From positions 1 through 49,770 of the forward strand of contig SCRI01000057.1 of the NCBI GenBank assembly GCA_004298675.1: a stretch of DNA of 49,770 nt. The letters are read 5' to 3'. The notes below the pieces were generated by a model, which was not told where the DNA came from, made no database searches, and saw nothing but the letters and a program-made list of their open reading frames with translations. The position numbers and the translations under genes are program-made. The DNA is from a bacterium. Its GTDB lineage: Bacteria; Vulcanimicrobiota; Vulcanimicrobiia; Vulcanimicrobiales; SCRA01. Below are positions 14,407-45,283 of the stretch, in pieces; the stretch's first letter is position 1, and each line of letters begins with the position of its first letter.

Positions 14407-14422
14407 GATCGTGGAGTATATC

Positions 14423-14458
14423 ATGTAGTACTACATAATGTAAAGCTACATGATGTAG
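14423..14458 (-). promoter_or_regulatory. pair of palindromes upstream of the ATPase gene (probable operator/promoter)
   Basis: Two related inverted repeats stand in an AT-rich patch in an otherwise GC-rich region. The first, ATGTAGTACTACAT (14423-14436), is a perfect 14-base palindrome. The second, CTACATGATGTAG (14446-14458), is a 13-base palindrome with one central base. Both share the half-site CTACAT/ATGTAG. They lie 17-52 bases upstream of the ATPase start at 14406, where a repressor binding two sites would act. This arrangement suggests autoregulation or control by a dimeric regulator; the regulator is not identified. They are too short to be transposon ends on their own. Confidence 0.55.
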
Positions 14459-17320: not shown

Positions 17321-17398
17321 GTACGATTCTCCATAGCAACGAAACCGCCCCAAGGGAGGGGCAGCGCAAGGTGGTTCGCCCGGTGAGAAGTCGTTCCT

Positions 17399-20911: not shown

Positions 20912-20946
20912 CGGCTCACCGAGTCTACCACATGCGGCAAGAGCCG

Positions 20947-21702: not shown

Positions 21703-23153
21703 TCTCGTTCAACCGCCGATCGTAGCGCGGCGGGCAGCGTAACCGGCGGCCCGAGCAGCAAGAGCAACGGCGGCGCGTATTGCAGCAGCGCCGCCACGAA
21801 GTTATAGGCTACGTTGCCGTTGCCGTAAGCGGCGTCGAAGACGTAGCGGATGGCGCTGGTCAGCGTGAGCGCCAGCAGCGTCAGACCCGCGCGCGAGTCG
21901 ACCGCGAGCAGCGCCAGCGGCAGCACCCATAGCACGTACCACGGGTAGGCATTCGGAAAGATTAGCCACGCGCCTAGCGCGATCACCGCGTAGCCGCTGC
22001 GCGTGCCCGCGCGCGCCATGCGCAGGCCGCGCAGCATCAGCGCGCCCGCGCCCAGCACCACCAGCGTACAGCCCACGGCCATGGCGGGGGCGCCCGCCGG
22101 CAGGATCAGGGCCGTGAGTTGCCACGCCATCCACTGCGGTGAGAAGACCGGTGCGTAGTGCGCGTGCGGCACCAGTACGCCGGCCACGCCGTGCTCGAAG
22201 GGGATGGAGAGCAGCGCTACTCCAGCTAAGCCGAGCGCGCCGCCCAGCGCGGTGCGGCGCAGCCCGCCGTTGCCGCGCTTCACCGAGGCGTCCACCAGCA
22301 GCAGTGCCGCCGCGGCCAGACCGGTGGCCTTCACGAGCACGGAGAGCGTGATGGTGCAGGCACCGGCAAAGAGATGGCGGCGGCGTGCCAATACCGCTCC
22401 GGCCAGCACCACCGCCAGCATCAGCGCATCGTTGTGGCCCTCGGCGCAGGTCCAGATCGCCACCGGGTTGAGGGCGATGCCGGCGGAGAGCACCAGGCGC
22501 CGCCGCAGCTCCCAGCCCTGCGTGGCGGCGAAGGCCAACGCCGCGCAGGCCAGCAGCGAGAGCGAGGCCAGCACGCGGAAGGCGTCTAGTTGGGCGGCGG
22601 TGCCCAGCGGCGCGGCGAGATGGACGATGCCTGCCGAGAGCCAGGTGAAGAACGGTCCGTAGACGCTCATCGGCGGTGGATTGCCCCACTGCTGGACGCT
22701 GGCGCGCATGAGCGCGTCGAAGGGCTGCACGGCGGTGTGCACGTAGGGGCTGAGACCGTGCAGCGCGAGGTCGCCGTACCAGCCGTAGGCATAGACGTCG
22801 GAGGAGAAGAGCACCGGGAACGAGGCGGCACAGAGCGCGGCTAGTCCCGAGGTGCCGAGGATCGCCGCTAGCAGCGTGCGGTGTGGCGTGCCGTCGTCTT
22901 CGTGAACCCACAGTCCCCGCAGCAAGTAGATGTAAGCCACGGAGCCGCCGGCGATGGCCAGCGCTAGCGCGGACCACAGCAGCAGGCCCCAGTCTCCCTG
23001 CCAGGTGACGACGGGAACGGGGGCGGCGACGCCGGCGCGCACCTGCCATGGGGCGTGCGCGAGGATCGATGAAGCAGCGATGCCGCCGAGTACGAACGCG
23101 GATCCCACGGCGACACCAGCCGCCGTGATGCGATCAGCGACGTCTCGTGCCAT
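21699..23153 (-). CDS. polytopic GT-C glycosyltransferase, GT87/MptB-like
   Basis: 484-residue protein with about 11-13 hydrophobic spans. After the first spans it has SSDVYAYGWYGDLALHGLSPYVH (about residues 125-148) and MSVYGPFFTW, the layout of the catalytic loop of polyprenyl-phosphate-mannose-dependent transferases (an acidic residue, then GxxPY and YGP). A second loop has WTCAEGHNDALML, and near the end FPNAYPWYVLWVLPLALLA. These enzymes add a sugar from a lipid carrier on the outer face of the cytoplasmic membrane. The ATG at 23153 overlaps the preceding gene by 20 bases. The exact sugar and acceptor cannot be told. Confidence 0.75.
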   Translation of the reverse strand: MARDVADRITAAGVAVGSAFVLGGIAASSILAHAPWQVRAGVAAPVPVVTWQGDWGLLLWSALALAIAGGSVAYIYLLRGLWVHEDDGTPHRTLLAAILGTSGLAALCAASFPVLFSSDVYAYGWYGDLALHGLSPYVHTAVQPFDALMRASVQQWGNPPPMSVYGPFFTWLSAGIVHLAAPLGTAAQLDAFRVLASLSLLACAALAFAATQGWELRRRLVLSAGIALNPVAIWTCAEGHNDALMLAVVLAGAVLARRRHLFAGACTITLSVLVKATGLAAAALLLVDASVKRGNGGLRRTALGGALGLAGVALLSIPFEHGVAGVLVPHAHYAPVFSPQWMAWQLTALILPAGAPAMAVGCTLVVLGAGALMLRGLRMARAGTRSGYAVIALGAWLIFPNAYPWYVLWVLPLALLAVDSRAGLTLLALTLTSAIRYVFDAAYGNGNVAYNFVAALLQYAPPLLLLLGPPVTLPAALRSAVERE

Positions 23154-24477
23154 CGTCCAGCCATTTCCGGTCGAGCAGGTCATGCCCTGCGCGCGCGGCC
23201 GGCAGCGCGCAGACACAGATCCAGAACTGACCGACTTTTTCGAAGAAGGTCAGCAGGTCGACGGCGCCGTGCACGGCCAGGGCCGCCGAGCCGGCGGCGA
23301 TCCCCGCGCAGAGCGCGCTCCTGCGCGCGCGCAGCCAATAGGGAAAGATGGAGGCTAGCGTCAGCGCGATCAGTGCGGCCAAGCCCACGATGCCGGTCTC
23401 GGCGAGGGCTTGCAGGTAGGCGCTGTTCGCATGGGTGCGGACGCCGTGGAGCCCCACGCGCCCCAACTCCAGCTCGAAGTTGCCCGCGCCAACCCCGAGT
23501 AGTTTGTGGCGCCCCCACAGTGCGATCGCGGCGCGCCAGAGCTCGCTGCGCGTGCCGATACCGCCAACGTAGGTTGTGTCGGCGCGCCCGAGCAGCGCCG
23601 TGGAGGCGGAGAGCGGATGTGCGATCACGCCGGCGCGCGCGAGCGCGAGGAGCGAGAGCGCAAACCCGCCCAGGATGCCGAGCGCGCCCGCCTTGGCCGG
23701 AGTCTGGTTCGCTGCTACGCCCGCGCGTCCGCGCCAGATGAGCACCAGCACGAGCGCGCCGAAACCGGTGGCGATGCCCGCGCGTGAGAACGTCAACAGC
23801 AGCGCTGCGCAGCCGGCGGCCAGCGCCGCGCCGTAGAGCGTGCTGCGTGCGCGATCTTGTCTTGTGCGCAACCCGTATGCGAGCAGCAGCGGAAGCGCCA
23901 CGTCGAGGAAAGCCGCCAGCTGGTTGGGCCCTTCGAGCGGTCCCGCTACCCGCGGCACGATTTCGCCCAAAAGCGGCAGCGCCGACGGCGCGCCGGTCCA
24001 GAGTTGGGCGATGGCCGCAAGCGCTACCGCTAGCGTGGCTGCCGCAGCGGCCAGCACCGCCGGCTCCGCGTCCTCCTGGGCCAGCAGCGCGGTGACGGCG
24101 AAGAGCACCAGGTACTGCAGATCCTTCAAGGTTTGGCGCAGCGCCTCGGCAGGATAGGAGGCCACGGCGATGGAGGCGGCAGCCACGGCGGCGACGGCCG
24201 CCAGGGCATAGAGCATGGGCGCGCCGATGCCGTTGCGTAGAGTGTTGAAGGCTTCACGTAGCCCGCCGCCGCTGAGCAGCCCCACCAGCGCACCCAGTAG
24301 GGCGAACTTCGCCAGCGTGAGATCGGTGTGCCGCAGATGGGTGTAGAGCGCGAAGGGCACGCTGCCCGTGAGCACGGCGGCGGCCCAGGGCTTGCGCGTG
24401 CGCGCAAGCGCAAGTGTGCCCAGGAATATCGCGGCGTACGCCACGGCGAAAGCGAGATGGATTGCAGTCTGGCCCAC
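23134..24477 (-). CDS. O-antigen ligase-like polytopic membrane protein
   Basis: 447 residues with about 12 membrane spans and a large loop between two late spans. The loop region has GIGTRSELWRAAIALWGRHKLLGVGAGNFE and then GVRTHANSAYLQALAETGIVGL (about residues 320-385), which is the Wzy_C signature of O-antigen ligase/polymerase proteins: an Arg-rich start, a GxGxxNF turn and HxxxLQxxxExGxxG. An upstream GPLEGPNQLAAFLDVALPLLL is also family-like. GTG at 24475-24477 is the start, just before the first hydrophobic segment. Ligase (WaaL) and polymerase (Wzy) types cannot be separated by eye. Confidence 0.8.
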   Translation of the reverse strand: MGQTAIHLAFAVAYAAIFLGTLALARTRKPWAAAVLTGSVPFALYTHLRHTDLTLAKFALLGALVGLLSGGGLREAFNTLRNGIGAPMLYALAAVAAVAAASIAVASYPAEALRQTLKDLQYLVLFAVTALLAQEDAEPAVLAAAAATLAVALAAIAQLWTGAPSALPLLGEIVPRVAGPLEGPNQLAAFLDVALPLLLAYGLRTRQDRARSTLYGAALAAGCAALLLTFSRAGIATGFGALVLVLIWRGRAGVAANQTPAKAGALGILGGFALSLLALARAGVIAHPLSASTALLGRADTTYVGGIGTRSELWRAAIALWGRHKLLGVGAGNFELELGRVGLHGVRTHANSAYLQALAETGIVGLAALIALTLASIFPYWLRARRSALCAGIAAGSAALAVHGAVDLLTFFEKVGQFWICVCALPAARAGHDLLDRKWLDDGTRRR

Positions 24478-24542
24478 GCGGCAGGGTACGCGCCGTGATG
24501 ACCGGAGGCCTGTTCGTGGCGTCTCCCCGCCCCATCTTGGTG

Positions 24543-26492
24543 CTACAGCGGAGAGGCGATCACGGCGGCACGGTCCGCGTAGACCACGCGCCCGCAAGCG
24601 TGCAGCGCCAAAGTGCGGCGAGCTGCGCGCACGGCAGCGGGCGTGTCGCGATCCGTTCCCACCACCAGCAGCGCGCCTAAGCGCCGCGCCTGCGCGCACG
24701 GCTGCGAATCCAGCGCATCGTAGACCGTCGTGCGCGGCAGCAGCATGGAGATCGAGCCTGCGCGCACGTCCAGCGCCACGAGCGCCGGCGGACGCAGCTG
24801 CACTAAGCGCGAGAACAACCCGGTCGGCACGCCGCTCGGATCGGAGCGCATACCTTCGTCGTAGAACGCCACGGCGCGCGTGCTGGAGAGCCAGACGCCC
24901 ACGCAGAGCAGCGCCGCCGCGCAGGCCGTGCCAAACAGCGCCGCCCAGCGCTTCCAGTCAGGGTGCCAGAAGACCACCCACGCAAGCACCGCCACCAGCA
25001 GCGCGCACGTGAACGCCGCCGGCAGCGCGGAGCGCGTCGGTGCGTCGTTCCAGAAGAGCGCTTGAAAGCGTGCCACGCCGAAGAGCGACGAAAGCAGCGC
25101 CAACCCGCCCACCAGCAGCGGCGCGCGCGCCGCAAATAACGCGACTACCGCGCAGGCACAAGCCAGCGCCGGGAGATCAAAGCGCAGCGAGGCGCCGTTG
25201 GCCAGTTGCGGCACGCTGCCCGCGAAGCCGAAGGGCGCCGCCAAGTAGAGCCCGCTTACCAGCACGCCCGTCAAAGAGAGCGTGCCGAAGGCCAGCCCCT
25301 CGGCGCCCAAGCGTGCACGCAGCGAGCGCACGAAAAACTCGCCCAATGCCACGAACGGAATCAGCGCGAACGCAATCGTGGCCGCGCCCGCTGCCGCCAG
25401 CGCGCGCAGCAGCGTCGTGAGACCGGTCAACCCTTGTCCGGCGATGGTGCTGCCCCAGGGCTCGGCCAAAGCCTTGGAAGCGATCGGACTTAGCGCGCCG
25501 GGTGCCAGCAGCACGTCGCGTACGATCCACAGCAGCAGCGGCAGAAAGCCCCCCGCCACGTCGATCGCGCGCGAAGAGAACGGTGGCTCGCCGCGCTGCA
25601 CCGCCACGCGCGCAACGAAGTACGCCACGCCGGCCGCCAGTGCCACGACGGCTCCCAGCGGCTTGATCAGCGCGCACAACCCCACCGAAACCAGCAGCGC
25701 GCGTGAAGAGCGCGCGTAGAGCAGGCTCCACAGCACCTCCAGCGTCGCCGCTGCCAGCCACAGGTCGTTTTGCAGCGTTCCCACCTGCCCGGCCGCCACC
25801 GGAGTGGTCAGCAGCGCCACGGCGCAGAGCGCGCCGGCGGCGGTGACGGCGGTGGCGGAAGAGCGCCGTGCGGCGAACGCAACGATACGCAGCGTCAAAA
25901 GCAGCGCCGCCGCGCCACCTGCCAGCGGCAGCGACCAGCGCGCCCCCACGGCGATCATGCCGGCCGCGAACAGCTCCGAGCCGCCGGGATACCACCAGTA
26001 GCGCGTGCCGGTGACCCAGAGCGTGTGCGTGCGCGCCCAGGCAAACGCATTCGGCAGATGATAGGCCAGCGTGTCGCCCTCGAGCGGTGGGCGCAGCAGT
26101 TGCGGCCAAAGCAGCAGCACCAGTGCCGCCGTCACGATCGTCAGCCACACCCACGCGCGCGACAGCGGCGCGTGGCGTGCAGCGGTGGTGCGCTGCGCGG
26201 CGGGGCGCCAGGCTAGCACCACGCACGGCAGTGCCGCGATCAGGCAGATCTCACCGTAGAGCGCGTGCGCGAATCCCAACACAAACGGGATCCCCACGCC
26301 CAGCGCGATCGCGTTGCGCGTGCGCAACGCGGCCCGCTCCGCCAACGTCGCGCCCTCACGTGAAGCGGCGCCAAGCAACGGCGCGCCCAACCACAGCAAC
26401 GCCAGCCACAGCGTGGCCAGTAGGCCCGCGCCCGCGCCGGCGTTCTCAAACGTCGCCGGGGACCTCCGCGCTGGCGCGATCGACGCGCGCAA
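24543..26492 (-). CDS. large polytopic membrane protein, GT-C glycosyltransferase-like
   Basis: 649 residues with many hydrophobic spans and a small C-terminal soluble part. The first outer loop holds PPLEGDTLAYHLPNAFAWARTHTL (about residues 135-158) and later YWWYPGGSELFAAGMIA, which resembles the loop of PMT/ArnT-type transferases (acidic residue followed by YHLP). The C-terminal domain ends with a periplasmic-like segment (ALVALDVRAGSISMLLPRT ... ACGRVVYADRAAVIA). The start is unsure: a TTG at 26492 overlaps the GT2 gene by 47 bases and is the only common start before the first span. Substrate unknown; the neighbours suggest envelope polysaccharide. Confidence 0.7.
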   Translation of the reverse strand: MRASIAPARRSPATFENAGAGAGLLATLWLALLWLGAPLLGAASREGATLAERAALRTRNAIALGVGIPFVLGFAHALYGEICLIAALPCVVLAWRPAAQRTTAARHAPLSRAWVWLTIVTAALVLLLWPQLLRPPLEGDTLAYHLPNAFAWARTHTLWVTGTRYWWYPGGSELFAAGMIAVGARWSLPLAGGAAALLLTLRIVAFAARRSSATAVTAAGALCAVALLTTPVAAGQVGTLQNDLWLAAATLEVLWSLLYARSSRALLVSVGLCALIKPLGAVVALAAGVAYFVARVAVQRGEPPFSSRAIDVAGGFLPLLLWIVRDVLLAPGALSPIASKALAEPWGSTIAGQGLTGLTTLLRALAAAGAATIAFALIPFVALGEFFVRSLRARLGAEGLAFGTLSLTGVLVSGLYLAAPFGFAGSVPQLANGASLRFDLPALACACAVVALFAARAPLLVGGLALLSSLFGVARFQALFWNDAPTRSALPAAFTCALLVAVLAWVVFWHPDWKRWAALFGTACAAALLCVGVWLSSTRAVAFYDEGMRSDPSGVPTGLFSRLVQLRPPALVALDVRAGSISMLLPRTTVYDALDSQPCAQARRLGALLVVGTDRDTPAAVRAARRTLALHACGRVVYADRAAVIASPL

Positions 26493-27387
26493 TCAGGTAG
26501 AGCGGACGCGCCTTGATCTCGTCGTAGATGCGCCCCACGTACTCGCCTAGGATGCCGATCGTCACCAACTGCACGCCGCCCAGCAGCAAGATCGCCAGCA
26601 TGGTCGAGGTGTAGCCGGGCAGATTGTATCCCAAGCCGTTGAGCACCAGCACCACCAGGCCGTAGCAGAAGGCGAAGGCGGCGATCAGAAAGCCCAGATA
26701 CGTCGCCACGCGCAACGGCACTTCGGAGAACGCCGTGATGCCGTCGAGCGCGAAACGCAGCATCCGGCGCAGCGGGTACTTGGAGCTGCCCGCGAAGCGT
26801 ACGTCGCGGTCGTAGGAGACGCCGGTCTGGCGGAAGCCCACCCACGAGACCAGACCGCGCAGGAAGCGATGGCGTTCGCGCATGCCGGAGAGCGCGGCCA
26901 CCACGCGCCGGCTCATCAAGCGAAAGTCCCCCACGTCCACCGGAATGGAGACGTTGGTCAAGCGCGTGGTGAGGCGGTAGAAGAGCGCGGCCGTCCACAC
27001 TTTGAAGCGGCTCTCGCCGCGGCGCGTGCGGCGCACGGCGTAGACCACGTCGAAACCGTCGTGCCACTGCGCCAGCAGCTCGGGGATCAGCTCGGGCGGA
27101 TCCTGCAGATCGCCGTCCATCAATACCACGGCGTCACCGCGCGCGCGGTCCAAGCCGGCGGTAGCCGCGATCTGGTGGCCGAAGTTGCGCGAGAGCTCCA
27201 CCAGCACTAGCGCCGGGTACGTCGCGAAGAGCGCGCGCACGGCGGCCGCGGTGCCGTCGCGGCTGCCGTCGTTCACCAGCACGATCTCGTAGGCGTCGTC
27301 CACGGTCCGCAGCACCGCATCTACGCGCCGCACCAGCTCCGGTACGATCGCCTCTTCGTCGTAGAGCGGAATGACGACGCTGATCAC
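26446..27387 (-). CDS. GT2 glycosyltransferase, GtrB/DPM1/ArnC-like
   Basis: Transfers a sugar from a nucleotide donor to polyprenyl phosphate on the cytoplasmic face. 313 residues: catalytic GT-A domain with VVIPLYDEEAIVPELV (1-20), IVLVNDGSRDGT (about 37-48), LSRNFGHQIAATAGLDRARGD and the metal site VLMDGDLQDPPEL (about 90-105); DVGDFRLMSRRV (about 150); then two C-terminal membrane spans around residues 230-295 with ILGEYVGRIYDEIKARPLY at the end. This is the usual partner of GT-C enzymes such as the ones downstream: it makes the lipid-linked sugar that they use. Starts ATGA-overlapped with the preceding gene. Confidence 0.9.
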   Translation of the reverse strand: MISVVIPLYDEEAIVPELVRRVDAVLRTVDDAYEIVLVNDGSRDGTAAAVRALFATYPALVLVELSRNFGHQIAATAGLDRARGDAVVLMDGDLQDPPELIPELLAQWHDGFDVVYAVRRTRRGESRFKVWTAALFYRLTTRLTNVSIPVDVGDFRLMSRRVVAALSGMRERHRFLRGLVSWVGFRQTGVSYDRDVRFAGSSKYPLRRMLRFALDGITAFSEVPLRVATYLGFLIAAFAFCYGLVVLVLNGLGYNLPGYTSTMLAILLLGGVQLVTIGILGEYVGRIYDEIKARPLYLIARVDRASAEVPGDV

Positions 27388-28334
27388 GCCGTGCGCGCGC
27401 GCAGCATGCGCACGCCCTGCCAGAAGAGCGGAAACATCAGCTCATGATGGCCGGTGAGCGAGTAGCCTTTGCCGTTCGTGCCCAGATGCGGGCGGCGCAC
27501 CACGTTGGTGGCGGCGCGATACTGGCGGATGAAGTCGAAGTCGGCGGTGGTGCAGTCGCCGTGGTAGCCCATGTTGCGCGCCACGCTGATGGCTTTCAGA
27601 AAGACCTCCGGCAGCATCACGGCCGAGCCGAAGTTGAGATAGACCCCGCCGTCCAGCAGCTCCGCCACCACGCCGCAGAGCAGGCGGAAATCGTAGTGAG
27701 TGGCGGCGCCGATGGCCGCACCGTCGGCTTGCGGATGCATGTGCACGATGTCGGTGCCGATGGCAACGTGCACGGTGCAGGGGACGTTCATCGCGGCACA
27801 GGTAGCCAGCACGGAGGTGGAGGCGTACGGCGCGTTGCGCTCCAGCAACATCTCGCCTAGCGCGCGTCCCAGACCCACCTGCGCTCCGCGCCGCGCCACG
27901 CACTCCAGCAGTGCGGCGGCCGTCTGTCCCGACATGCCGAACGAGCCGTCCTGCAGCGCGACGTCCACGTCCTCGGAAGTCTTGCCCACCAGCGCCAGCT
28001 CCACGTCGTGGATGGTCACGCTGCCGTTGGTACAGATGGCGGAGATGTAACCGCTGCGTACCAGATCGCAGACCAACGGCGCCAGCCCGACCTTGACGAC
28101 ATGGCCGCCCATCCCGAGCAGTACCGGCCGTTCCCGCTCGAGCGCCTGGACGGTGCGAGCGGCCAACTCCTTGAGCGCCGTGGCGCCGAGGAAATTAGGG
28201 AGCGCCTCCCACCACTCGGAAAACGAGGCATCCGCGCCGACAGTGCGCGCGACGTCGTCGCGTGACACTTTCGACGGCCGCTCCTCCAAGTCGGTAACGG
28301 CGATACCCGAAAAGTCGAGTGGGGAGAACTCCAT
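27384..28334 (-). CDS. conserved protein of unknown function, deoxyhypusine-synthase-like appearance
   Basis: 316-residue soluble protein. Notable segments are LLGMGGHVVKVGLAPLVCDL (about residues 70-90), TNGSVTIHDVELALVGKTSEDVD (about 103-125), DGSFGMSGQTA, CTVHVAIGTDIVHMHPQADGAAIGAA (about 195-220), GVYLNFGSAVMLPEVFLKAIS (about 245-265) and VVRRPHLGTNGKGYSLTGHHELM (C terminus). The pattern of Gly-rich loops and conserved His/Asp suggests a nucleotide-binding enzyme; I associate it with proteins labelled deoxyhypusine-synthase-family in bacteria, but the canonical catalytic Lys motif of that enzyme is not obvious. It is first in the array of glycosyltransferases, overlapping the GT2 gene by 4 bases. 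ATG at 28334 chosen by start of conserved sequence. Confidence 0.55.
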   Translation of the reverse strand: MEFSPLDFSGIAVTDLEERPSKVSRDDVARTVGADASFSEWWEALPNFLGATALKELAARTVQALERERPVLLGMGGHVVKVGLAPLVCDLVRSGYISAICTNGSVTIHDVELALVGKTSEDVDVALQDGSFGMSGQTAAALLECVARRGAQVGLGRALGEMLLERNAPYASTSVLATCAAMNVPCTVHVAIGTDIVHMHPQADGAAIGAATHYDFRLLCGVVAELLDGGVYLNFGSAVMLPEVFLKAISVARNMGYHGDCTTADFDFIRQYRAATNVVRRPHLGTNGKGYSLTGHHELMFPLFWQGVRMLRARTA

Positions 28335-28396
28335 CGTCGGCACAGCATTGGCGCACCAACGAGGGACGGCCTCCCTTCGCCGCGCATTAGAGGGCC
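28335..28396. promoter_or_regulatory. divergent intergenic region (inferred promoters both ways)
   Basis: A 62-base gap between the minus-strand DHS-like gene (start 28334) and the plus-strand lipoprotein gene (start 28397). It must contain promoters for both directions if each is the first gene of its unit, since these are the only divergent starts for many kilobases. I do not see convincing -35/-10 boxes, and the call rests on gene orientation alone. Confidence 0.35.
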
Positions 28397-29113
28397 GTGT
28401 CTCTGCTGCCGCGGCTCGCGCCGCTCCTCGCCGCCGCCCTGCTCTTGAACGCCTGTGCGCATAGCGTAAAGCAGCAGGCCGTGGCGGTGTCGACGCCCGC
28501 GCAAGCCCCCACCGCCACCGCCGCTCCGACACCCCCGCCGCCGACACCAACGCCCACACCCGTTCCCACGCCAACGCCGGCGCCGACACCGCCGCCTACG
28601 CCGTCGCCCGCGCCGCCCCCAACCGCGTCGCCGTCGCCGCTGCCTACTCCGCGTGCCGGTAAGTTAGTCGAACAGGTCGCCACGCCGATCCCCAAGCCCA
28701 CCTTGGCGCCCGCCAACGAGCTGCCGCCGCGCGTTATCTCGCCGGCGCCCGCACCGCCGGCGCCCGCGCGCCCGCGCGTGCATGTGGTGCCGCAGGACGG
28801 CCGCTACGCCGGACGGATCGCTTCCCCTGAGGACCCGCCCAAGATCTTCAGCGTGGAGGTGTCGGATGATGCGCCATCGTCCGGCGAGACCGTGATCGGC
28901 AGAGTCGTCACCACGACCAACGTCGCGGCGGTGCACGCGAGTCTGCAGGGCATCACGATCGGCTTTCAGCGTCAAGATGCCGGCGTCTTCACGGTGAGTT
29001 ACACCGTACCGCGCGTCCCGTTCTTCCTCAAGCGTGGCTATACGTTAGAAATCGTGGCCCAGACCACCGACGGGCGCACCGCCAGCACCGAGTTCCCCAT
29101 CCGCGTGCACTAG
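28397..29113 (+). CDS. proline-rich lipoprotein with C-terminal beta domain
   Basis: 238-residue probable lipoprotein. GTG start at 28397; signal segment LPRLAPLLAAALLLNAC with lipobox LNAC (Cys at residue 20). Residues about 33-86 are a Pro/Thr/Ala tract made of TP, PTP and APTP units, probably an extended spacer across the periplasm or cell wall. The C-terminal ~110 residues look like an Ig-like beta domain (SVEVSDDAPSSGETVIGRVVTTTN, ITIGFQRQDAGVFTVSYTVP, YTLEIVAQTTDGRTAST). Family not recognised. It converges on the CBM-like gene, and their TAG stops overlap at 29110-29113. A role in envelope anchoring is inferred only from architecture. Confidence 0.7.
   Translation: MSLLPRLAPLLAAALLLNACAHSVKQQAVAVSTPAQAPTATAAPTPPPPTPTPTPVPTPTPAPTPPPTPSPAPPPTASPSPLPTPRAGKLVEQVATPIPKPTLAPANELPPRVISPAPAPPAPARPRVHVVPQDGRYAGRIASPEDPPKIFSVEVSDDAPSSGETVIGRVVTTTNVAAVHASLQGITIGFQRQDAGVFTVSYTVPRVPFFLKRGYTLEIVAQTTDGRTASTEFPIRVH
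28493..28655 (+). repeat. Pro/Thr-rich low-complexity coding tract
   Basis: DNA composed of imperfect CCN-ACN repeats (for example CCGACACCAACGCCCACACC) inside the lipoprotein gene. It encodes alternating Pro with Thr, Ala or Ser. Such tracts can change length by slipped replication, but the codons used vary enough that the repeat is imperfect at DNA level. Confidence 0.7.
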
Positions 29114-29727
29114 CGCTGATCGCTCCAGCGCGCCACCGTGTCGCTGGCGCTCAGACCGGGCCGTGCCCGCAGCGTGCGCGCCGGTGCTTGTCCGCCCGCG
29201 GGGTCGCTCTCGACGCTGCTCCACGCGCCGCGCGTGTAGCGGTAGGTCAGCGCGGCGCCGTCGGGCAGCGGGATGGCGCAGCGCCAGGTGATGCCGTCGA
29301 GCTGCGTGCAGCGCACTTGATTCGCGTTCCAGCCGCTGGCGGCCGTGGCAACGTACACGCTGTCGCCGGGGGGCGTGGAGGAGGGCACTTGCACCGTCAG
29401 CGCTACCGTGACGTTGGCTGCTTGCGTAAGCTCCGTCGCGCTGTGCGGCGGCGTGACGAAGAGCGCGGCGGGGACGGCGCTTGCGGCTTCCCCTTCGCTG
29501 AAGGGATGGTCGGCCACGCGCAGCGCGCGCACCACGCCCTGATCGTCGAGCGCGATCAGCACGTAGCGCCCGGGCCTGGCCTGGCGCTCGACGTTGGGAT
29601 CCAGCGCGGGATCGAGGCGCAGCGCGTCGCCGCTGGTCAGCACCAGCAGACCGTCCTGGAGCGCCAGCACCTGCGCGTGGATCCGCAGCGCTACGGCAAG
29701 AGCGAGATGGTGAAGCGTGGCGACCAC
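29110..29727 (-). CDS. exported protein with CBM20-like domain, copy B
   Basis: 205 residues, last gene of the duplicated module. GTG at 29725-29727 begins a short signal-like segment (TLHHLALAVALRIHA) and overlaps the preceding barrel gene by 37 bases. An N-terminal small domain has LQDGLLVLTSGDALRL and GRYVLIALDDQGVVRALRV. The C-terminal domain has VALTVQVPSSTPPGDSVYVA, SGWNANQ, LDGITWRC, ALTYRYTRGAWSSVE and DTVARWSDQ. The order VY(I/V)A ... W ... YRYTRG(S/A)W ... D-V-W matches starch-binding CBM20/CBM48 folds. It is clearly paralogous to copy A (31196-32002) along its whole length. No catalytic domain is present; its ligand is not known. Confidence 0.75.
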   Translation of the reverse strand: MVATLHHLALAVALRIHAQVLALQDGLLVLTSGDALRLDPALDPNVERQARPGRYVLIALDDQGVVRALRVADHPFSEGEAASAVPAALFVTPPHSATELTQAANVTVALTVQVPSSTPPGDSVYVATAASGWNANQVRCTQLDGITWRCAIPLPDGAALTYRYTRGAWSSVESDPAGGQAPARTLRARPGLSASDTVARWSDQR

Positions 29728-31190
29728 GTCTGCCCTCCGTAGTTGAAGTAGTAGGAGCGCTGCAGCTCCAGGATGCCGTAGCGCGAGATGCGCAGGCGCA
29801 GATCCAGCGCGGCTTGGTAGGGGATGCGTACGACGTTCACGTCGTCGGCATGCTGCAGCGAGAGCGCAAACTGCGTGCCCGCCGGGCCGTCGTAGGTGAG
29901 ACCGAGCGCGCTGGTGCGCTCGAGCAGCGCGGGGTTGGAGGTCTCGACGAGCTGGTAGCTCGCCACCGCGCTCACGCGCCGGGCGATGCGCCGCGCCGCC
30001 GTCAGTACCAGATCGTCGCCAATCGCGCCGCGGCCCGGACCCGTGGAGTACCAGGCGAGATCGCGTTCGGCGTAGGCCGAGAGTTGCACGTGCAGCGGCA
30101 GCGTGTAGACGGGGCTGCTGAGTGACAAACCCGCGCCCTTCGTCCAGGCATTGGTGGCCGTGGCTGGATCGACTTGCGCGCCCAGGCCAAAGGCGTCGTG
30201 ACCGTAGCCGAGCGTGCCGTGCAGGCGGTAGTGGAAGTTCGAGCGCCCGAGCGCGCGATCGTAGCCGTACCACGCCAGTTGCGCGCCGCTGGGATGGTTG
30301 GGAACGCCGTCGGCCACCAGCGAGTCGTAACTTTGGTTCAGCGCAAGTTGCAGGTAGGAGCTCCGCAGCGCAGCGGTGAGCGAGTAGTTGAAGAACGCAC
30401 CGGCTTGCCGCGGCGTGCGCAGGAGCTCGCCTTGACGGTAGCCGGTGGCGCTGAAGGTTTGGTAGAGCGAGGGGCTCATGCGCTGGTAGAGCGTGAGCGA
30501 GGCGTTACGATTGCTTTGCGTGAGCGGCGCCGCCGAGAGCAGCGCATAGGCGCGGTTACCGAAGACCAGGCGATGGTCGAAGCCTAGCGATGCGCCGGCG
30601 CTTTGATCGTAGCGCAGGTGCAGCGTCTCCAGTGCGTGCGCGCCGCCGCGGTAGGGCCAAGGCTGATCGAAGCTGGCGTACGGCAACGTGTTGTTGGCGT
30701 AGTAGGCGTTGGAGGAGAAGACGTAGACGTAGCTAGGCACGGTGGCGCCGCGGGTGGGGTAGAGAAAGGTGGCGTGGCGTAGCGTGACCAGCGTCTCCGG
30801 CACCACCTCCGCGGAGGTGGCCACCATCCACGGCGTCTCGGTGAGATTGGGAAAGGCGAAGGCGTCCGCGGGCGCGGCGCTATCGAGTGCTTGCAGCGTG
30901 CGCGCGTCCAGGCGTTCGCGCAGGGGTTGGGGCTGCGTGACCAGCGCGTACAGCGTGCCGTTGGGCGTGCACACCACGGCGGCTGCATGCAGCGTTGCGC
31001 CGTCGCCGGCGCCGGTGATCGTGACGTGACCCGCCAGCAGCAGGCGCCCGGAGCGCAAGTCGTAGGTGAAGGCATCCGCCTGCGCCTGCCGCCCAGCGCC
31101 CAACTGCGCCTGCGCGGGGCCGCGCCCTTCGATCACGCCGGCGTTGACGTAGAGCGCGATCTGGGCCGCCGCGAAGGTCTCGAGCAGCAC
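29691..31190 (-). CDS. OstA/LptD-like outer-membrane barrel protein, copy B
   Basis: 499 residues from a GTG at 31188-31190, eight bases after the stop of CBM copy A. The N-terminal ~100 residues form an OstA-like jellyroll (ADAFTYDLRSGRLLLAGHVTITG, DGATLHAAAVV), and the rest has alternating aromatic/polar strands expected of a transmembrane barrel (LHLRYDQSAGASLGFDHRLVFG, RSSYLQLALNQSYDSL, FHYRLHGTLGYGHD). It ends YYFNYGGQTWSPRFTISLLP, matching the end of copy A (FFNFGVQKWSPGFSITFGP). Only a weak signal peptide is visible at the start. True LptD proteins transport LPS, but this one is short; it may be a specialised relative. Function is not proven. Confidence 0.7.
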   Translation of the reverse strand: MLLETFAAAQIALYVNAGVIEGRGPAQAQLGAGRQAQADAFTYDLRSGRLLLAGHVTITGAGDGATLHAAAVVCTPNGTLYALVTQPQPLRERLDARTLQALDSAAPADAFAFPNLTETPWMVATSAEVVPETLVTLRHATFLYPTRGATVPSYVYVFSSNAYYANNTLPYASFDQPWPYRGGAHALETLHLRYDQSAGASLGFDHRLVFGNRAYALLSAAPLTQSNRNASLTLYQRMSPSLYQTFSATGYRQGELLRTPRQAGAFFNYSLTAALRSSYLQLALNQSYDSLVADGVPNHPSGAQLAWYGYDRALGRSNFHYRLHGTLGYGHDAFGLGAQVDPATATNAWTKGAGLSLSSPVYTLPLHVQLSAYAERDLAWYSTGPGRGAIGDDLVLTAARRIARRVSAVASYQLVETSNPALLERTSALGLTYDGPAGTQFALSLQHADDVNVVRIPYQAALDLRLRISRYGILELQRSYYFNYGGQTWSPRFTISLLP

Positions 31191-31195
31191 CGCTA

Positions 31196-32002
31196 CTACG
31201 GCGCCTTGATGATCGGTCCCGGAGTGGGCGGCGCGCTCAGAATCTGCGGCACCACGCTGCCGGGCAGCAGATCGGCCCAGTTCGTCACGGTGTCGTCGCG
31301 CTGCGCGGTGTCGGCTTCGGGGACCGTGAACCGGCGCACGTTACCCTCCTGGCCGGCCTTGTTGCGCTCCTCCGTCTGCCACGAGCCGCGCGTGTAGCGG
31401 TAGTGGATGATCGTGCCGGACGGCATGCGTGCGGTGACGGCGAAGTGCAGGCCGTCCAGACGATGGAGCTTGATGGCGTCGGCGCGCCAGTCGCTGACGT
31501 CGGTGGCGATGTAGACGCTGGAGGTGATGGGCGTGTTGGGCGGTACCTCCACGCGGAAGGTCATCAGCACGTCGCGGCCGGTGTAGCCGGCGGCGTGGCC
31601 GTACTGGCCCTGTTTGGGCACGAGGTCCGGATTGGCCACGGGCGGCGAGAGCGCGACGATGTACGCGTGATCGACTTTGTCCGGGGCGATGCCCTCTTTG
31701 ATGGGCTTGGTACTGAGCTGCACGCCCACCACGATCTTGCTGGCGGTGTCGAGATCGGCCAGGGCATAGGTACCCACCGCGAACGGTGGGAGCGTCGAGG
31801 TGTGGTAGCCGCTCACCGCGGCGTCCTGGGCGAGCCTGAAGGCGTCACCGGTGGTGAAGAAGAGATAGCCGTTCTGCACGTCCAGGATCTGCCCGGAGAT
31901 GGCGATCTGCGGTGCCGGCGTTTGGGCCAGCGCCGGTGTGAGTGCAAGTGCGCCTAAGGCTGCCCAGGTAAACATCACGCGCATCAAATTTCGCACGTTC
32001 AT
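31196..32002 (-). CDS. exported protein with CBM20-like domain, copy A
   Basis: 268 residues with a clear signal peptide (MRVMFTWAALGALALTPALAQ, cleavage after ALA). A small domain follows (ISGQILDVQNGYLFFTTGDAF, GTYALADLDTASKIV, STKPIKEG), then a beta domain with MTFRVEVPPNTPITSSVYIA, VSDWRAD, LDGLHFAV, TIIHYRYTRGSWQTEE, and DTVTNWADL. These are the typical positions of CBM20-type starch-binding folds. Copy B shows the same elements in the same order. The ATG at 32000-32002 overlaps the stop of barrel copy A (ATGA). A Pro-rich end (PPTPGPIIKAP) completes it. Likely periplasmic; partner of the barrel gene upstream. Confidence 0.8.
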   Translation of the reverse strand: MNVRNLMRVMFTWAALGALALTPALAQTPAPQIAISGQILDVQNGYLFFTTGDAFRLAQDAAVSGYHTSTLPPFAVGTYALADLDTASKIVVGVQLSTKPIKEGIAPDKVDHAYIVALSPPVANPDLVPKQGQYGHAAGYTGRDVLMTFRVEVPPNTPITSSVYIATDVSDWRADAIKLHRLDGLHFAVTARMPSGTIIHYRYTRGSWQTEERNKAGQEGNVRRFTVPEADTAQRDDTVTNWADLLPGSVVPQILSAPPTPGPIIKAP

Positions 32003-33735
32003 GGCCCGAAGGTGATCGAGAAACCCGGCGACCATTTCTGGACGCCGAAGTTGAAGAAGTACGTGCGCGCGATGTCCACGCTCAGCGAGTGGGTTAGGCG
32101 CACGCGCAGATCCGCCAGGAGTTGATCGGCAGGCCGCGTGGTCAAGAGCTGGCCCGGCAAGAGCGGCATCACCGCCGGCGTGTCCGCGTCGTGCTGGTAG
32201 GAGAGCTGCAGCGAAAACTCGGGGCTGGGCGTGAAGTAGTTGCTCAGGATGTAGCTGCGCTGTGTGGCGCCGCTGCGCGAAAAGGGCGGCCATTGGTCCA
32301 CGGAGTTCGCGAACTGCACCTGCGCCACCATCGCCTCATGGGTGGTAAAGAACTTGCTGGCGGTCAGCGTGGTGGTCGTCGAAGTGTTCACGTGCGGATA
32401 ACTGTAGGACATGATCTGCCGGTCCACCGATCCGTTCAGCTTCACGCCGCGTCCCACGTTGAACGACTGGGTGTAGAGCGTGGCGCCCACGTAACGATCC
32501 CAGAGCGTCGGATAGACGTCGCCGTAGTGGCCCTGCAGCACGCCGTACGCGTCGTGATCGTAATCCATCCCGGAGCGCAGGCGGAAGAACGTCAGGTAGT
32601 GTTTGTCCAGATTGTGGGCAAAGCCCGTCCAACTCGCCGCCCCCTTGAACGGATGGTTCTGCACGATGCCGTGCGCGGGATCGCCGTAGTAGCCCAGCGG
32701 GTTGGGTGCCAGCAGGTTGCCTTCGCTCTGCGTGCCCGTCACCGTCACGAACGATTCGCTCAGCGCATGGACTAGCTGGTAGGTGGCGAAGCCGGAAGAG
32801 GAGAGCGGCTGCGAGAGCCCCGACTGGAACGTGAAGAGCTGCGTCACCAGTTGACCCGACGTGCGATCGCTGAACTTGTGATACTCCACCACGTTGAATT
32901 GTTTATCGGGACGCGTGAGCGGGTTACCGGAAAAGACCAGATAGCCACGTCGGCCGTCGTGCCCCTCCACCAGCCGCTCCTCGAACGAAAGAAACGCGCG
33001 GTCTTGCCCGTTGTAACGCAGATGCAGCGCACCCAGTTGGTTTGGTCCGCCCAGGAAGAAGTACGGGCCGTCGAACTGCGCGCCCGATAGCGAGTTCTGT
33101 CCGAAGTACGGGTTGGCCGCGAAGTTCAGTACGTAGGAAGGTGTGGGTACCAGCGTGCGATCGCCCGCGGAGAGCAGCGCGGCGGGGCGGAACGTCACGG
33201 ACGAGCGCGGACGAATCAGCGCCGTGCGCGCCGTGAGAAAGAGCGTGGAGCCTTCGGCATTCGGCAAGTGGAACGTGTCGCCGGGCATCTCGCGCCCGGG
33301 GTTGTGCGTGGCGTACGAGCCATCGATGAACGTCCAGCGGTCCGGCTCCGGCGAGACCGGAATGAAGTACGCGCGGTGGAAGTCGATGAACTCCGCGAAG
33401 GCCGCACCGTCGTATGAACCGTCGGGTGCCTGCAGATGCACGCCTCCGGCTACGAGAAAGCGGTTGAGCCGCAGGTCCATCGAGAAGCGCTCGCCGGTGA
33501 TTACCGCGGAGCCGTAGTCGACGCGCACGTGTCCGGTACCGGCGATCACATAGCGATCGCTGTAGTACGCCAAACGATCGGCACTGATACGGAATGGCTG
33601 CGCGGTGGCAGCGGGCGTTGGCGACGGCTCCGGTGTGGCCAAGGGCGCAGCGCAAGCGCGACCCGTAGCGGCAACGGTGATGATAGACAGAATTGCCGCG
33701 ACGGCCCAGCACTTCACGCGCAACCGGCTTCGCAT
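31999..33735 (-). CDS. OstA/LptD-like outer-membrane barrel protein, copy A
   Basis: 578 residues, first gene of the four-gene module. Signal peptide at residues 1-29 (CWAVAAILSIITVAATGRACA), a Pro/Thr linker, then the OstA-type domain (FRISADRLAYYSDRYVIAGTG, VRVDYGSAVITGERFSMDL, FLVAGGVHLQAP; about residues 48-110), and a long beta-strand region with alternating aromatics (LHLRYNGQDRAFLSFEERLV, RGYLVFSGNPL, FSLQLSYQHDADTP) ending TYFFNFGVQKWSPGFSITFGP. LptD is usually 650-800 residues with a disulfide pair; few Cys are seen here. ATG at 33735 is chosen because the signal peptide begins there. Confidence 0.75.
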   Translation of the reverse strand: MRSRLRVKCWAVAAILSIITVAATGRACAAPLATPEPSPTPAATAQPFRISADRLAYYSDRYVIAGTGHVRVDYGSAVITGERFSMDLRLNRFLVAGGVHLQAPDGSYDGAAFAEFIDFHRAYFIPVSPEPDRWTFIDGSYATHNPGREMPGDTFHLPNAEGSTLFLTARTALIRPRSSVTFRPAALLSAGDRTLVPTPSYVLNFAANPYFGQNSLSGAQFDGPYFFLGGPNQLGALHLRYNGQDRAFLSFEERLVEGHDGRRGYLVFSGNPLTRPDKQFNVVEYHKFSDRTSGQLVTQLFTFQSGLSQPLSSSGFATYQLVHALSESFVTVTGTQSEGNLLAPNPLGYYGDPAHGIVQNHPFKGAASWTGFAHNLDKHYLTFFRLRSGMDYDHDAYGVLQGHYGDVYPTLWDRYVGATLYTQSFNVGRGVKLNGSVDRQIMSYSYPHVNTSTTTTLTASKFFTTHEAMVAQVQFANSVDQWPPFSRSGATQRSYILSNYFTPSPEFSLQLSYQHDADTPAVMPLLPGQLLTTRPADQLLADLRVRLTHSLSVDIARTYFFNFGVQKWSPGFSITFGP

Positions 33736-33828: not shown

Positions 33829-34962
33829 ATGTCTCGCGCGGTGATTCTGGTGATGGACTCCGGGGGAGTTGGGGCGCTTCCGGATGCCTCAGCCTTCGGC
33901 GACGCACCGGGCGCCAACACCATCGGCAACACGATTCGTGCGCTAGGTGGTCTGCATCTCCCTACCCTGGACCGGCTCGGTCTGGCCGCCGTGCTGACGC
34001 ACGGCAACCAGAACCAAGGCGACCGGCCGGACGCTCGCTACGCCCGTCTCGAGGAGCGCTCCCAAGGCAAGGACACGATCACCGGGCACTGGGAGATGAT
34101 GGGGATCGTGACCCAGGTTCCGTTTCCAACGTACCCGCATGGCTTCCCGGCTGACGTCATCGAGCGCTTCACGGCCATCGCGGACGGCAGAGCACCTTTG
34201 GGCAACCAGACGGCTAGCGGTACCGAGATCATCCAGCGCCTGGGCGAAGAACACCAAAGGACCGGCCGCCCCATCCTCTACACGAGCGCCGATTCGGTCT
34301 TCCAGGTGGCCTGCCACGAACAGACCGTCCCGCTAGAGACGCTCTACCGCTGGTGCGAGGCGGCTCGCGCGATGCTCACCCCGCCGCACAACGTCAACCG
34401 GGTGATCGCCCGCCCCTTCCTCGGCGAGCCCGGCCGCTACTACCGCACCGCCAACCGGCGCGACTACGCCCTGGAGCCGCCGCCCATGCTGCTGGACGAG
34501 CTGTCTGCCGGCGGCGTCAAGGTGCATGCCATCGGCAAGATCTCCGATATCTACTGTGGGCGAGGTGTAACGTCGTCGGAACGGACGGCGGATAACCTCG
34601 AGGGCATGGAGCGGACCCGCCAAGCCCTAGCCCGCATGGATCACGGTCTGATCTTCACCAATCTCAACGACTTCGACTCCAAGTACGGACATCGCAGGGA
34701 CGTGCGCGGGTACGGCCGGGCTTTGGAGCAACTGGACGCAGCCTTGGAAGGCTTGCTTGCCGACCTACAGGAAGGGGATCGTCTCTTGATCACGGCGGAC
34801 CATGGGTGTGACCCCACAGCCCCAGGAACCGACCATACCAGAGAGTACGTTCCCTTGTTGGATTATGGTAGGGGACGCGGCGATGCCGGCGTGCTCGAAG
34901 GCCTGGGTGTGGTCGGCGAGATCGTCAAGTCGACGTTGGCTCCCGGTTTCGCCACTCTCTAA
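33829..34962 (+). CDS. deoB: phosphopentomutase
   Basis: Interconverts (deoxy)ribose-1-phosphate and -5-phosphate in nucleoside salvage. The 377-residue alkaline-phosphatase-superfamily protein has the metal/catalytic N terminus AVILVMDSGGVGALPDA, GANTIGNTIRALGG near residue 30, the phosphorylated-Thr region GKDTITGHWEMMG near 85, TYPHGFP, TSADSVFQVACHE near 150, GKISDIYCGRGV near 240, FTNLNDFDSKYGHRRD near 280 and ITADHGCDPTAPGTDHTREYVPLL near 330. It uses the product of purine-nucleoside phosphorylase (punA). It is the first plus-strand gene and is followed by the polysaccharide locus after 17 bases. Confidence 0.96.
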   Translation: MSRAVILVMDSGGVGALPDASAFGDAPGANTIGNTIRALGGLHLPTLDRLGLAAVLTHGNQNQGDRPDARYARLEERSQGKDTITGHWEMMGIVTQVPFPTYPHGFPADVIERFTAIADGRAPLGNQTASGTEIIQRLGEEHQRTGRPILYTSADSVFQVACHEQTVPLETLYRWCEAARAMLTPPHNVNRVIARPFLGEPGRYYRTANRRDYALEPPPMLLDELSAGGVKVHAIGKISDIYCGRGVTSSERTADNLEGMERTRQALARMDHGLIFTNLNDFDSKYGHRRDVRGYGRALEQLDAALEGLLADLQEGDRLLITADHGCDPTAPGTDHTREYVPLLDYGRGRGDAGVLEGLGVVGEIVKSTLAPGFATL

Positions 34963-34979: not shown

Positions 34980-35663
34980 ATGCGGACGTCGTATGCTGAC
35001 GAGGTTCAGACATTGCCCGATGCGCGGCTGGTTGCCGCGTTGCGTCCGCGTGCCGTTCCACGCTCGTGGCTGGCCTGGAAGCGCGCCACGGACCTAGCAA
35101 TCGGCACGTGTGCGCTCATGCTGGCACTCCCCGTGATCATCTTAGCGGCGCTGGCCATCGTGGTCGTCTCCCCCGGCAATCCGTTCTTCGTGCAGAAGCG
35201 CGTGGGGAAGAACGGGCGGCGCTTCCGCTTCTATAAACTACGCACCATGTACGACGGGGCACATTTGGAGCACGAGCGCATGCGCGCGTACAACGACGTG
35301 GACGGCCCGGTGCTGAAAGTGATCGACGATCCGCGCCTGCATGCCCTGGGCGGCGTGCTGCGGCGCACCAGCATCGACGAGCTGCCGCAACTGTGGAACG
35401 TGCTCAAGGGCGACATGAGCTTGGTGGGGCCGCGCCCGGCCTTACCGTGCGAGGTGGAAGCCTACGACGCCTTCGCCATGCGCCGGCTTTCGGTGCAGCA
35501 GGGTATCACCTGCTATTGGCAAGTCAACGGCCGCTCGAGCGTGACGTTTGACGAATGGATGGCGCTGGACAACCGCTACGTGGACGCCTGGACGCCGCTG
35601 GGTGATCTGAGGCTGCTGCTGAAGACGATTCCAGCTGTGGTGAAGGGCGATGGCGCTCACTAG
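34980..35663 (+). CDS. undecaprenyl-phosphate sugar-1-phosphate transferase (initiating enzyme, WbaP/EpsL-like)
   Basis: Starts a lipid-linked polysaccharide repeat by loading a sugar-1-phosphate on undecaprenyl phosphate. 227 residues: N-terminal tail, one re-entrant/membrane helix (about 40-62, CALMLALPVIILAALAIVVV), then the catalytic core with PFFVQKRVGKNGRRFRFYKLRTM, HALGGVLRRTSIDELPQLWNVLKGDMSLVGPRP (about 120-155) and GITCYWQVNGRS, followed by DNRYVD. This is the short, monotopic PglC-like type without the extra N-terminal spans of WbaP. It overlaps the MurJ-family gene by 14 bases. Confidence 0.93.
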   Translation: MRTSYADEVQTLPDARLVAALRPRAVPRSWLAWKRATDLAIGTCALMLALPVIILAALAIVVVSPGNPFFVQKRVGKNGRRFRFYKLRTMYDGAHLEHERMRAYNDVDGPVLKVIDDPRLHALGGVLRRTSIDELPQLWNVLKGDMSLVGPRPALPCEVEAYDAFAMRRLSVQQGITCYWQVNGRSSVTFDEWMALDNRYVDAWTPLGDLRLLLKTIPAVVKGDGAH

Positions 35664-37281
35664 CCCAACGCCTGGCCGCAAGGTCATCCCGCTTCCAAGC
35701 CGCCGGCAGGTAGCCGGCTCCACGCTCCTCGTGGCCGGGGCCACCCTGGCCTCCACCGTGATGGGCTTCTTCCGCGAGGTCATCAACGCGCGCTACTTCG
35801 GGACGTCCTGGGAGATGGACACGTTCCTGGCGGCGGCGGTGGTGCCGACGATCCTCTTCGGGGTCTTCAACGGGGCGCTGGTAAACGCGCTGGTGCCGGT
35901 GTTTAGCGAGCTGGTGCAGCGGGGCGAGGAGGAGCGGGCATGGCGCGTGGCCAGCAGCGTGATCAACGCGCTGATCATCGTGCTGGGCTTCGGCGTGTTG
36001 GTGGGTTGGATACTGGCGCCGCTGTACGTGCCGCTGGTGGCCAAGGGCTTCCCCGCACCGCAGATGAGCGTGTGCGTGCACATGACGCGTATCCTGCTGC
36101 CCACCATCATGTGCACGTCCCTGGCGGGCGTGCTCTCCGCGATCCTGTATTCGCACCATCGCTTCAAGGCGCCGGCGGTGCAGGGCATTGCCATCAACTT
36201 CGCCACCATCGGCGGCGTGCTGCTGTGGCACGGACACTTTGGCATCTTCGCGTTGGTGTTTGGCACGGCGATCGGTTTGGCGCTGCAGTTGGCAGTGCAG
36301 ATCCCGCCGCTGCTGCAGGCCAAGCCCGGCTACCGGCTCTTCATCGACCTGAGCGATCCCGCGTTCAAGAAGATCTACGAGCTGCTGGGGCCGATCATCA
36401 TCGGCTCCGCGGCCGGGCAGATGGCGCTCTTCTTCGACCGCTACTTCGCGAGCCAGCTCTCGCCCGGCTACATTAGCGGGATGAACTACGCCACCAAGTT
36501 GGTGGGGTTCCCGCAGCAAATCTTCGCCGCGGCGATCGCCACGGTGATCTTTCCGCTGCTCTCGCGACAGTTTGCTCGCAAGGACAACGAGACGCTGCGC
36601 GAGACCATCGTGACCGGGTTGCGCATGGTCAACTTCATCAGCGTGCCGGCGGTGGTGGCGCTGATCATCCTGGCGCGGCCGATCGTGGCCACGCTCTTCG
36701 AGCGCGGCGCCTTCCAGTCGGCGGCGACCGATCTGACGGCGGGGCTGCTGCCGTTTGCTGCGGTTGGGCTGGTGGCGCTCTGCGCCAATATCGTGCTGAC
36801 GCGCTGCGCCTTCGCCTGCTGCGAGACCCGCTGGCCGGTGGCGTTCGCAGTGGGCAGCGTGGTGCTGAATATCGTGCTGTCGATCACGTGGCTGCCAACG
36901 CTGGGGGCGCGCGGGCTGCTGCTAGCCAACAGCGTGAGCCAGACCGTGCAGATGATCGCGATGATGCTGCTGGTGCGCCATCTAGTCCGCGGGCTGCGTA
37001 TCCGGCGCGTAAGTTTCTCCATGCTTCGGATAACAGGGGCTGCCTTTGCCATGGGTGTAATGCTATTATGGTTTCGGCACCTGGACGTCCACGTGGGGCC
37101 GGCGATCTTCTCTCGAATCGAGCTCTTGGTGGGTCAGATCGCTATTGGCGCGTTTGCATTTCTTACCGTAGCCGGGATACTTCGGGCGCCGGAGTTCGAG
37201 CTCGCCCGTGCTCTTCTCCGGGAGAAGCTGCGCGGAGGCACGCCGACCCCTGCAGAGGGGACAGGAGCGCCGATCGGCTGA
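35650..37281 (+). CDS. murJ: MurJ/MviN-family lipid flippase
   Basis: 543-residue polytopic protein of the MOP flippase superfamily with about 14 spans. Family marks: STLLVAGATLASTVMGFFREVINARYFG near residue 20, DTFLAAAVVPTILFGVFNGALVNALVPVFSE near 45-75, LAGVLSAILYSHHRFKAPA near 155, and AIATVIFPLLSRQFARKD near 300. MurJ normally flips the peptidoglycan precursor lipid II. Here the ATG at 35650 sits inside the end of the initiating sugar transferase, so it may instead flip a polysaccharide repeat, replacing the absent Wzx. Whether another murJ exists elsewhere cannot be seen. Confidence 0.9.
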   Translation: MALTSPTPGRKVIPLPSRRQVAGSTLLVAGATLASTVMGFFREVINARYFGTSWEMDTFLAAAVVPTILFGVFNGALVNALVPVFSELVQRGEEERAWRVASSVINALIIVLGFGVLVGWILAPLYVPLVAKGFPAPQMSVCVHMTRILLPTIMCTSLAGVLSAILYSHHRFKAPAVQGIAINFATIGGVLLWHGHFGIFALVFGTAIGLALQLAVQIPPLLQAKPGYRLFIDLSDPAFKKIYELLGPIIIGSAAGQMALFFDRYFASQLSPGYISGMNYATKLVGFPQQIFAAAIATVIFPLLSRQFARKDNETLRETIVTGLRMVNFISVPAVVALIILARPIVATLFERGAFQSAATDLTAGLLPFAAVGLVALCANIVLTRCAFACCETRWPVAFAVGSVVLNIVLSITWLPTLGARGLLLANSVSQTVQMIAMMLLVRHLVRGLRIRRVSFSMLRITGAAFAMGVMLLWFRHLDVHVGPAIFSRIELLVGQIAIGAFAFLTVAGILRAPEFELARALLREKLRGGTPTPAEGTGAPIG

Positions 37282-45202: not shown

Positions 45203-45283
45203 AAAGATTGGGTCATCTGCTGTTGAATGCGGTCAGAGATGTGGGGCCGATCGGGGCCAGATGACGGGTCGCTAAACCCACCG

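Follow-up and report, generated by a model that had tools for sequence, protein, structure and literature searches.

Four genes lie on the minus strand at positions 29110-33735 of the window, i.e. the whole 49,770-nucleotide stretch of DNA that was analysed, and their coordinates bear out the co-directional order barA-cbmA-barB-cbmB given by the initial annotation. The barA gene (33735-31999) is associated with the ribosome-binding-like sequence GGAGGAGC, starts with ATG and encodes a signal peptide, an OstA domain and a predicted outer-membrane barrel; it is copy A of what we describe below as an LptD paralogue. The OstA-type domain was placed at approximately 33358..33594 (minus strand) by hhalign, by the strands of a weak structural model and by Foldseek. 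The ATG start of cbmA (32002-31196) overlaps the barA stop codon as ATGA, and the gene encodes an exported CBM20-like protein with a signal peptide. Its CBM20-like domain lies at approximately 31265..31579 (minus strand; sub-threshold Pfam CBM_20 match, hhalign and Foldseek). About 5 bases separate the cbmA stop from the GTG start of barB (31190-29691), which encodes copy B of the LptD paralogue, with no signal peptide visible. The start of cbmB (about 29727-29110) is uncertain, probably a GTG, and overlaps the end of barB; the product is the B copy of the CBM20-like protein. A convergent gene on the plus strand (28397..29113) encodes a lipoprotein with the lipobox LLNAC, a Pro-rich linker and a conserved C-terminal domain.

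The neighbourhood of this module includes genes of glycan metabolism. Divergent from barA, on the plus strand, are a metalloenzyme-superfamily gene, probably a phosphopentomutase (33829..34962; PF01676, E 1e-31, and synteny), a sugar-phosphate transferase gene (Bac_transf; 34980..35663; Pfam match and conserved neighbour by synteny) and murJ (35650..37281). Downstream, Pfam and synteny define a minus-strand block of conserved glycan genes (23134..27387), made up of a GT2 gene (26446-27387), a gene for a multi-pass protein (24543-26492) and a gene of the O-antigen ligase family (23134-24699). The conserved flank, assigned in the same way and also on the minus strand, consists of mfd (17399-21328) and a gene for a SurA/PpiC-like chaperone (16355-17353). 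Within the taxonomic order, MurJ, the sugar transferase and the metalloenzyme are kept on one side of the module, and GT2, the O-antigen ligase family gene, mfd and the SurA-like chaperone on the other. The O-antigen ligase family gene, GT2 and the sugar transferase give a moderate hint that the substrate is a glycan. MurJ had been considered as a dedicated glycan flippase. This was rejected, since the MurJ beside the module is the only full-length MurJ in the source genome and in 19 of the 21 genomes checked (none was found in the other two), and it is therefore probably the peptidoglycan flippase.

Several other features of the window were recorded. Between 38000 and 49770 the G+C content drops from about 0.70 to 0.54-0.57, and the genes there (glycosyltransferase, epimerase, GT87-like and acyltransferase-type) look like an acquired polysaccharide island adjoining the module; this low-G+C block includes an open reading frame of 810 amino acids (45227-47659) without any Pfam match. 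The product of 27384-28430 is weakly similar to deoxyhypusine synthase / ArgZ-like domains, and its gene is found beside the module in several relatives. An archaeal-type ATPase with a DUF234 domain is encoded at 13030-14424 among housekeeping genes.

The two halves of the module are homologous far above chance, as the initial annotation had proposed. In sequence searches of the genome barA matched barB with E 1.3e-36 (30% identity) and cbmA matched cbmB with E 5e-21 (35% identity), and at the sensitivity of the barA and cbmA searches the genome contained no further barrel or CBM copies. The motifs that had been noted as shared were all located, i.e. YFFNFGVQKWSPGFSI / YYFNYGGQTWSPRFTI at the ends of the barrels, and TTGDAFRL / TSGDALRL, VYIA / VYVA, YRYTRGSW / YRYTRGAW and DTVTNWAD / DTVARWSD in the CBM proteins. 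Comparison of congeners showed purifying selection on all four genes, with dN/dS of 0.09 for barA, 0.19 for cbmA, 0.28 for barB and 0.19 for cbmB, and each of the products therefore appears to be functional.

Ten of the 41 loci read in the order carry a tandem B module. The tree of the order copies groups all B barrels in a single clade (support 100/98), which persists (99/95) when copies from a second order within the class are added; the split between the A and B barrels is therefore placed before the divergence of the two orders. The cbmB sequences also form one clade (99/95). In the second order the B barrel is set apart, in many cases close to MurJ, and the second CBM gene occupies another site. 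To judge from these trees the A/B duplication is ancient and copy B was lost in many lineages; we infer the direction of the A/B events from midpoint rooting. A signal peptide of BarB is not recognisable in three congeners (including L035 and L118; in the window, positions 31181-31200 and the barB start), the protein beginning directly at the OstA domain, unlike the B copies of other genera, which carry one. A programmed frameshift or read-through from cbmA into barB was considered as an explanation and rejected, because the three congeners differ in how far the barB start lies from the cbmA stop and in the frame of the two. Copy B would be a version that has diverged and has often been lost, and it may serve a variant substrate.

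The pairing of barrel and CBM gene is well conserved in relatives, contrary to the absence that would have refuted the initial annotation. A search with a single sequence found the barrel in 55 of 61 relatives, and barA and cbmA were adjacent in all 41 loci read in the order. The second order has barA-cbmA in the equivalent locus, adjacent in 9 of 11 A loci; one of the remaining two is at a contig edge and the other is rearranged. In a survey of 149 genomes within the phylum, the barrel profile matched 107 and the CBM profile 104. All barrel matches fell within the class (107 of its 117 genomes, as counted from the genome listings); the profile search found no barrel in the 32 genomes from other classes, and one of these (G069) has a distant CBM match. 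A contig search with one sequence returned a single congener, FW021_bin.48, and nothing else, and no relatives were found among the viral contigs searched.

The relationship of the barrels to LptD was investigated by profile comparison. When all barrels were aligned with all LptDs, the two families were collinear over 421 columns with E 5.6e-9 and a score of 80, the best of 20 column shuffles reaching 22.5. Compared with the sister-class LptDs alone, the barrels scored 60.8, whereas 30 shuffles gave at most 22.0 and reversed profiles 17-18. The unrelated barrels BamA, FhuA and FadL of E. coli did not match the family. The OstA domain alone matched the LptD N-terminus (hhalign, E 4.7e-6). The barrel part taken alone gave no significant match to LptD, but the combined profiles do align through it. 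The N-terminal OstA-type domain of the initial annotation is further backed by PF03968, which matches 5 of 10 B copies and is above its cut-off in genome G004, and by the B barrel profile, which among PDB sequences found LptA/LptH only (best 1.5e-4); the barA and cbmA profiles gave nothing meaningful there. AlphaFold2 with four sequences produced a barA model of mean pLDDT 31, in which the OstA strands reached up to 69, and Foldseek ranked LptA, LptC and LptD first with this weak model. Alignments of four sequences are too shallow for structure prediction, and the Foldseek results are therefore taken as no more than supportive. From the profile alignments we regard as real a homology to LptD that extends from the OstA domain into the predicted barrel region.

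The barrels have in common with LptD an OstA domain at the N-terminus, followed by a linker and a C-terminal region, an arrangement that is collinear over about 420 columns. They differ from it in being shorter (about 530-600 amino acids) and without a PF04453 match, and in being an additional paralogue, restricted to one class of the phylum and encoded with a CBM20-like protein. Cysteine is absent from 16 of 29 A barrels and 8 of 10 B barrels, and inter-domain cysteines of the type found in LptD of E. coli, which served as the comparison rather than the LptD of the phylum, are not conserved.

The source genome also encodes a genuine LptD. PF04453, the Pfam family of LptD, has no match in the source genome and only weakly matches proteins in other classes of the phylum. 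A profile built from seven of these sister-class proteins found a full-length LptD in 143 of the 149 phylum genomes, including all 85 of good quality. In the source genome it lies at G000:C81:15330-17306 (E 2.4e-51), directly after an LptF/G gene. Since PF04453 also misses the genuine LptD of the class, the absence of a match is weak evidence, and LptD may be under-reported in such genomes. As the genome has its own full-length LptD at another locus, barA and barB are LptD paralogues; in other words, the "OstA/LptD-like barrel" of the initial annotation stands as regards homology and is sharpened to a paralogue. All of the 61 relatives have LptF/G; the source genome has two such genes, which make one pair, and a second, dedicated pair was not found in it. 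LpxC is present in 142 of the 149 phylum genomes, which indicates that lipid A is made. The source lineage probably belongs to the Eremiobacterota, of which Vulcanimicrobium is a cultivated member; the outer membrane of Vulcanimicrobium alpinus has been described as covered with LPS (PMC9758169).

The similarity of the partner proteins to CBM20 is weak but reproducible. Pfam CBM_20 matched cbmA with E 0.027, below the cut-off. Single members stayed under the gathering score (14.7 bits against 23.3 bits), but CBM_20 was still the commonest family match among the A members (5 of 29). A profile of the domain matched four CBM20 starch-binding domains over about 60 columns (hhalign, E 2.6e-4), with a score above all 100 shuffles, and CBM20 domains were the top Foldseek matches of a low-confidence cbmA model (pLDDT 38). 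We take the classic CBM20 site-1 residues to be W543, K578 and W590 of A. niger glucoamylase, the sequence used in the comparison being identical to PDB 1ac0. Every A copy has a Trp at the position of W543; the K578 and W590 positions vary. What links the partners to the CBM20 domains of glucoamylase (1ac0), beta-amylase (1ven) and STBD1 (8x8k) is thus the profile match, the top Foldseek rank and this Trp in the A copies. They differ in falling below the Pfam cut-off, in the two variable positions, and in that the CBM20-like part is joined to an extra N-terminal domain and to no enzyme. The CBM20-like assignment therefore stands at the level of similarity, short of the Pfam gathering score, whereas the suggested alpha-glucan binding is not backed beyond a similarity of fold, since only one of the three classic site-1 residues is conserved; glucan binding is possible but not indicated. 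The CBM proteins of the A copies have signal peptides, and most have a conserved Pro-rich tail, PTPFNPxPF, which the B copies lack.

A third component may be the convergent lipoprotein. In many loci its homologues are directly convergent with the CBM gene, with a gap of -3 to about 30 bases; elsewhere they are farther off within the locus, and some genomes have additional copies near mfd. From this arrangement it may be part of the barrel-CBM system. LptE, LptM and LptY (PMC12644819) resemble the CBM20-like proteins in being small exported partners of an LptD-type protein. Unlike the CBM20-like proteins of the A copies, which carry ordinary signal peptides, these three are lipoproteins. By analogy, the convergent lipoprotein is a possible counterpart of LptE, LptM or LptY.

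We propose, with about even confidence, that BarA and CbmA make up an accessory translocon of the outer membrane, which descends from LptD, works beside the normal LptD and has a glycan-recognising subunit. The OstA domain of BarA would dock on a periplasmic LptA-type bridge and continue it; as there is one LptF/LptG pair only, this bridge would be shared with LptD. The cargo that the barrel inserts into the outer membrane would be a particular glycolipid or a lipid bearing a glycan. The CBM20-like protein would either recognise the sugar part of this cargo or gate the barrel, a role comparable to that of LptE or LptY. The collinearity with LptD, the matches to LptA, LptC and LptD, the separate LptD, the near-invariant pairing, the ancient duplication of the pair, the purifying selection, LptF/G, LpxC and the glycan neighbours favour this reading. 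It is weakened by the pLDDT of 31 for barA, the non-significant match of the barrel part, the single LptF/G pair, the probable role of the neighbouring MurJ in peptidoglycan synthesis, the partially kept CBM20 residues and the lack of a signal peptide in barB. The initial annotation's reading as an outer-membrane machine for a glycan or glycolipid is still the best, if unproven, inference. More tentatively, the system might constitute a second, dedicated Lpt branch, in which a class-wide LptD paralogue, together with a glycan-recognising subunit of its own and possibly also a lipoprotein, delivers to the outer membrane a cargo distinct from the bulk LPS, either a surface glycolipid or a lipid-linked polysaccharide, and which was duplicated early into two substrate versions.

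Other readings of the same genes are less probable. BarA could be an outer-membrane channel or surface-glycan anchor whose OstA-derived domain serves assembly and not lipid transfer, with the CBM-like protein binding exported or environmental glucan, as in SusCD-like uptake or in holding a capsule. The CBM20-like partner, the weak resemblance between LptD and the barrel part and the failure to find a second LptF/G pair are in keeping with this, but we consider it unlikely, as the collinearity with LptD runs from the OstA domain through the linker into the barrel region, a glucan-degrading gene was not recognised in the conserved neighbourhood, and the site-1 residues are incompletely kept. It is still less probable that BarA and CbmA assist the normal LPS translocon as an assembly factor, hetero-oligomer or regulator of O-antigen-bearing LPS, and do not form an independent gate: the locus does contain genes for a SurA-like chaperone and an O-antigen ligase family protein, and LptD of E. 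coli has the small accessory subunits LptM and LptY (PMC12644819), but the known accessories are small lipoproteins and not LptD-type barrels, and the barA locus and the LptD gene are on different contigs. That BarA is simply the divergent LptD of the lineage, working as the usual LPS translocon while the CBM-like protein takes the place of LptE, is very improbable and already largely refuted. In its favour are the lack of a PF04453 match in the genome, the near-universal occurrence of the barrel in the class and the presence of lipid A genes. Against it, every well-assembled genome of the phylum has a full-length LptD (adjoining an LptF/G gene in the source genome), and the LptD profiles of the class and the sister class match over their full length (E 7e-65). 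An earlier conclusion that barA is the LptD of the class, drawn from the empty PF04453 result, LptF/G and LpxC, was overturned when the sister-class profile found the separate LptD.

An Lpt-type route for non-LPS glycolipids, as in our proposal, has also been suggested for the Lpt-orthologous system of Borrelia burgdorferi (PMC10353723); that system, however, belongs to an organism without LPS, whereas the bacteria studied here have a complete LPS route and the LptD-like protein besides. A literature search that covered few subscription journals found neither an LptD linked to a carbohydrate-binding module nor an LptD paralogue of the BarA kind, which agrees with the initial annotation, to which no system pairing these two families was known. 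As far as can be read from the genomes of the phylum, barA-cbmA is a real, conserved and class-specific LptD paralogue with a CBM20-like partner, and the pairing is apparently undescribed. The near-constant pairing suggests that a glycan or glycolipid of the cell surface is exported by a route of its own, so far undescribed. In the usual account LPS has a single gate in the outer membrane, LptD. If our proposal is true, Lpt transport can fork towards more than one cargo, and BarA-CbmA would be a concrete candidate for the export of surface glycans in a diderm lineage that has received little study.
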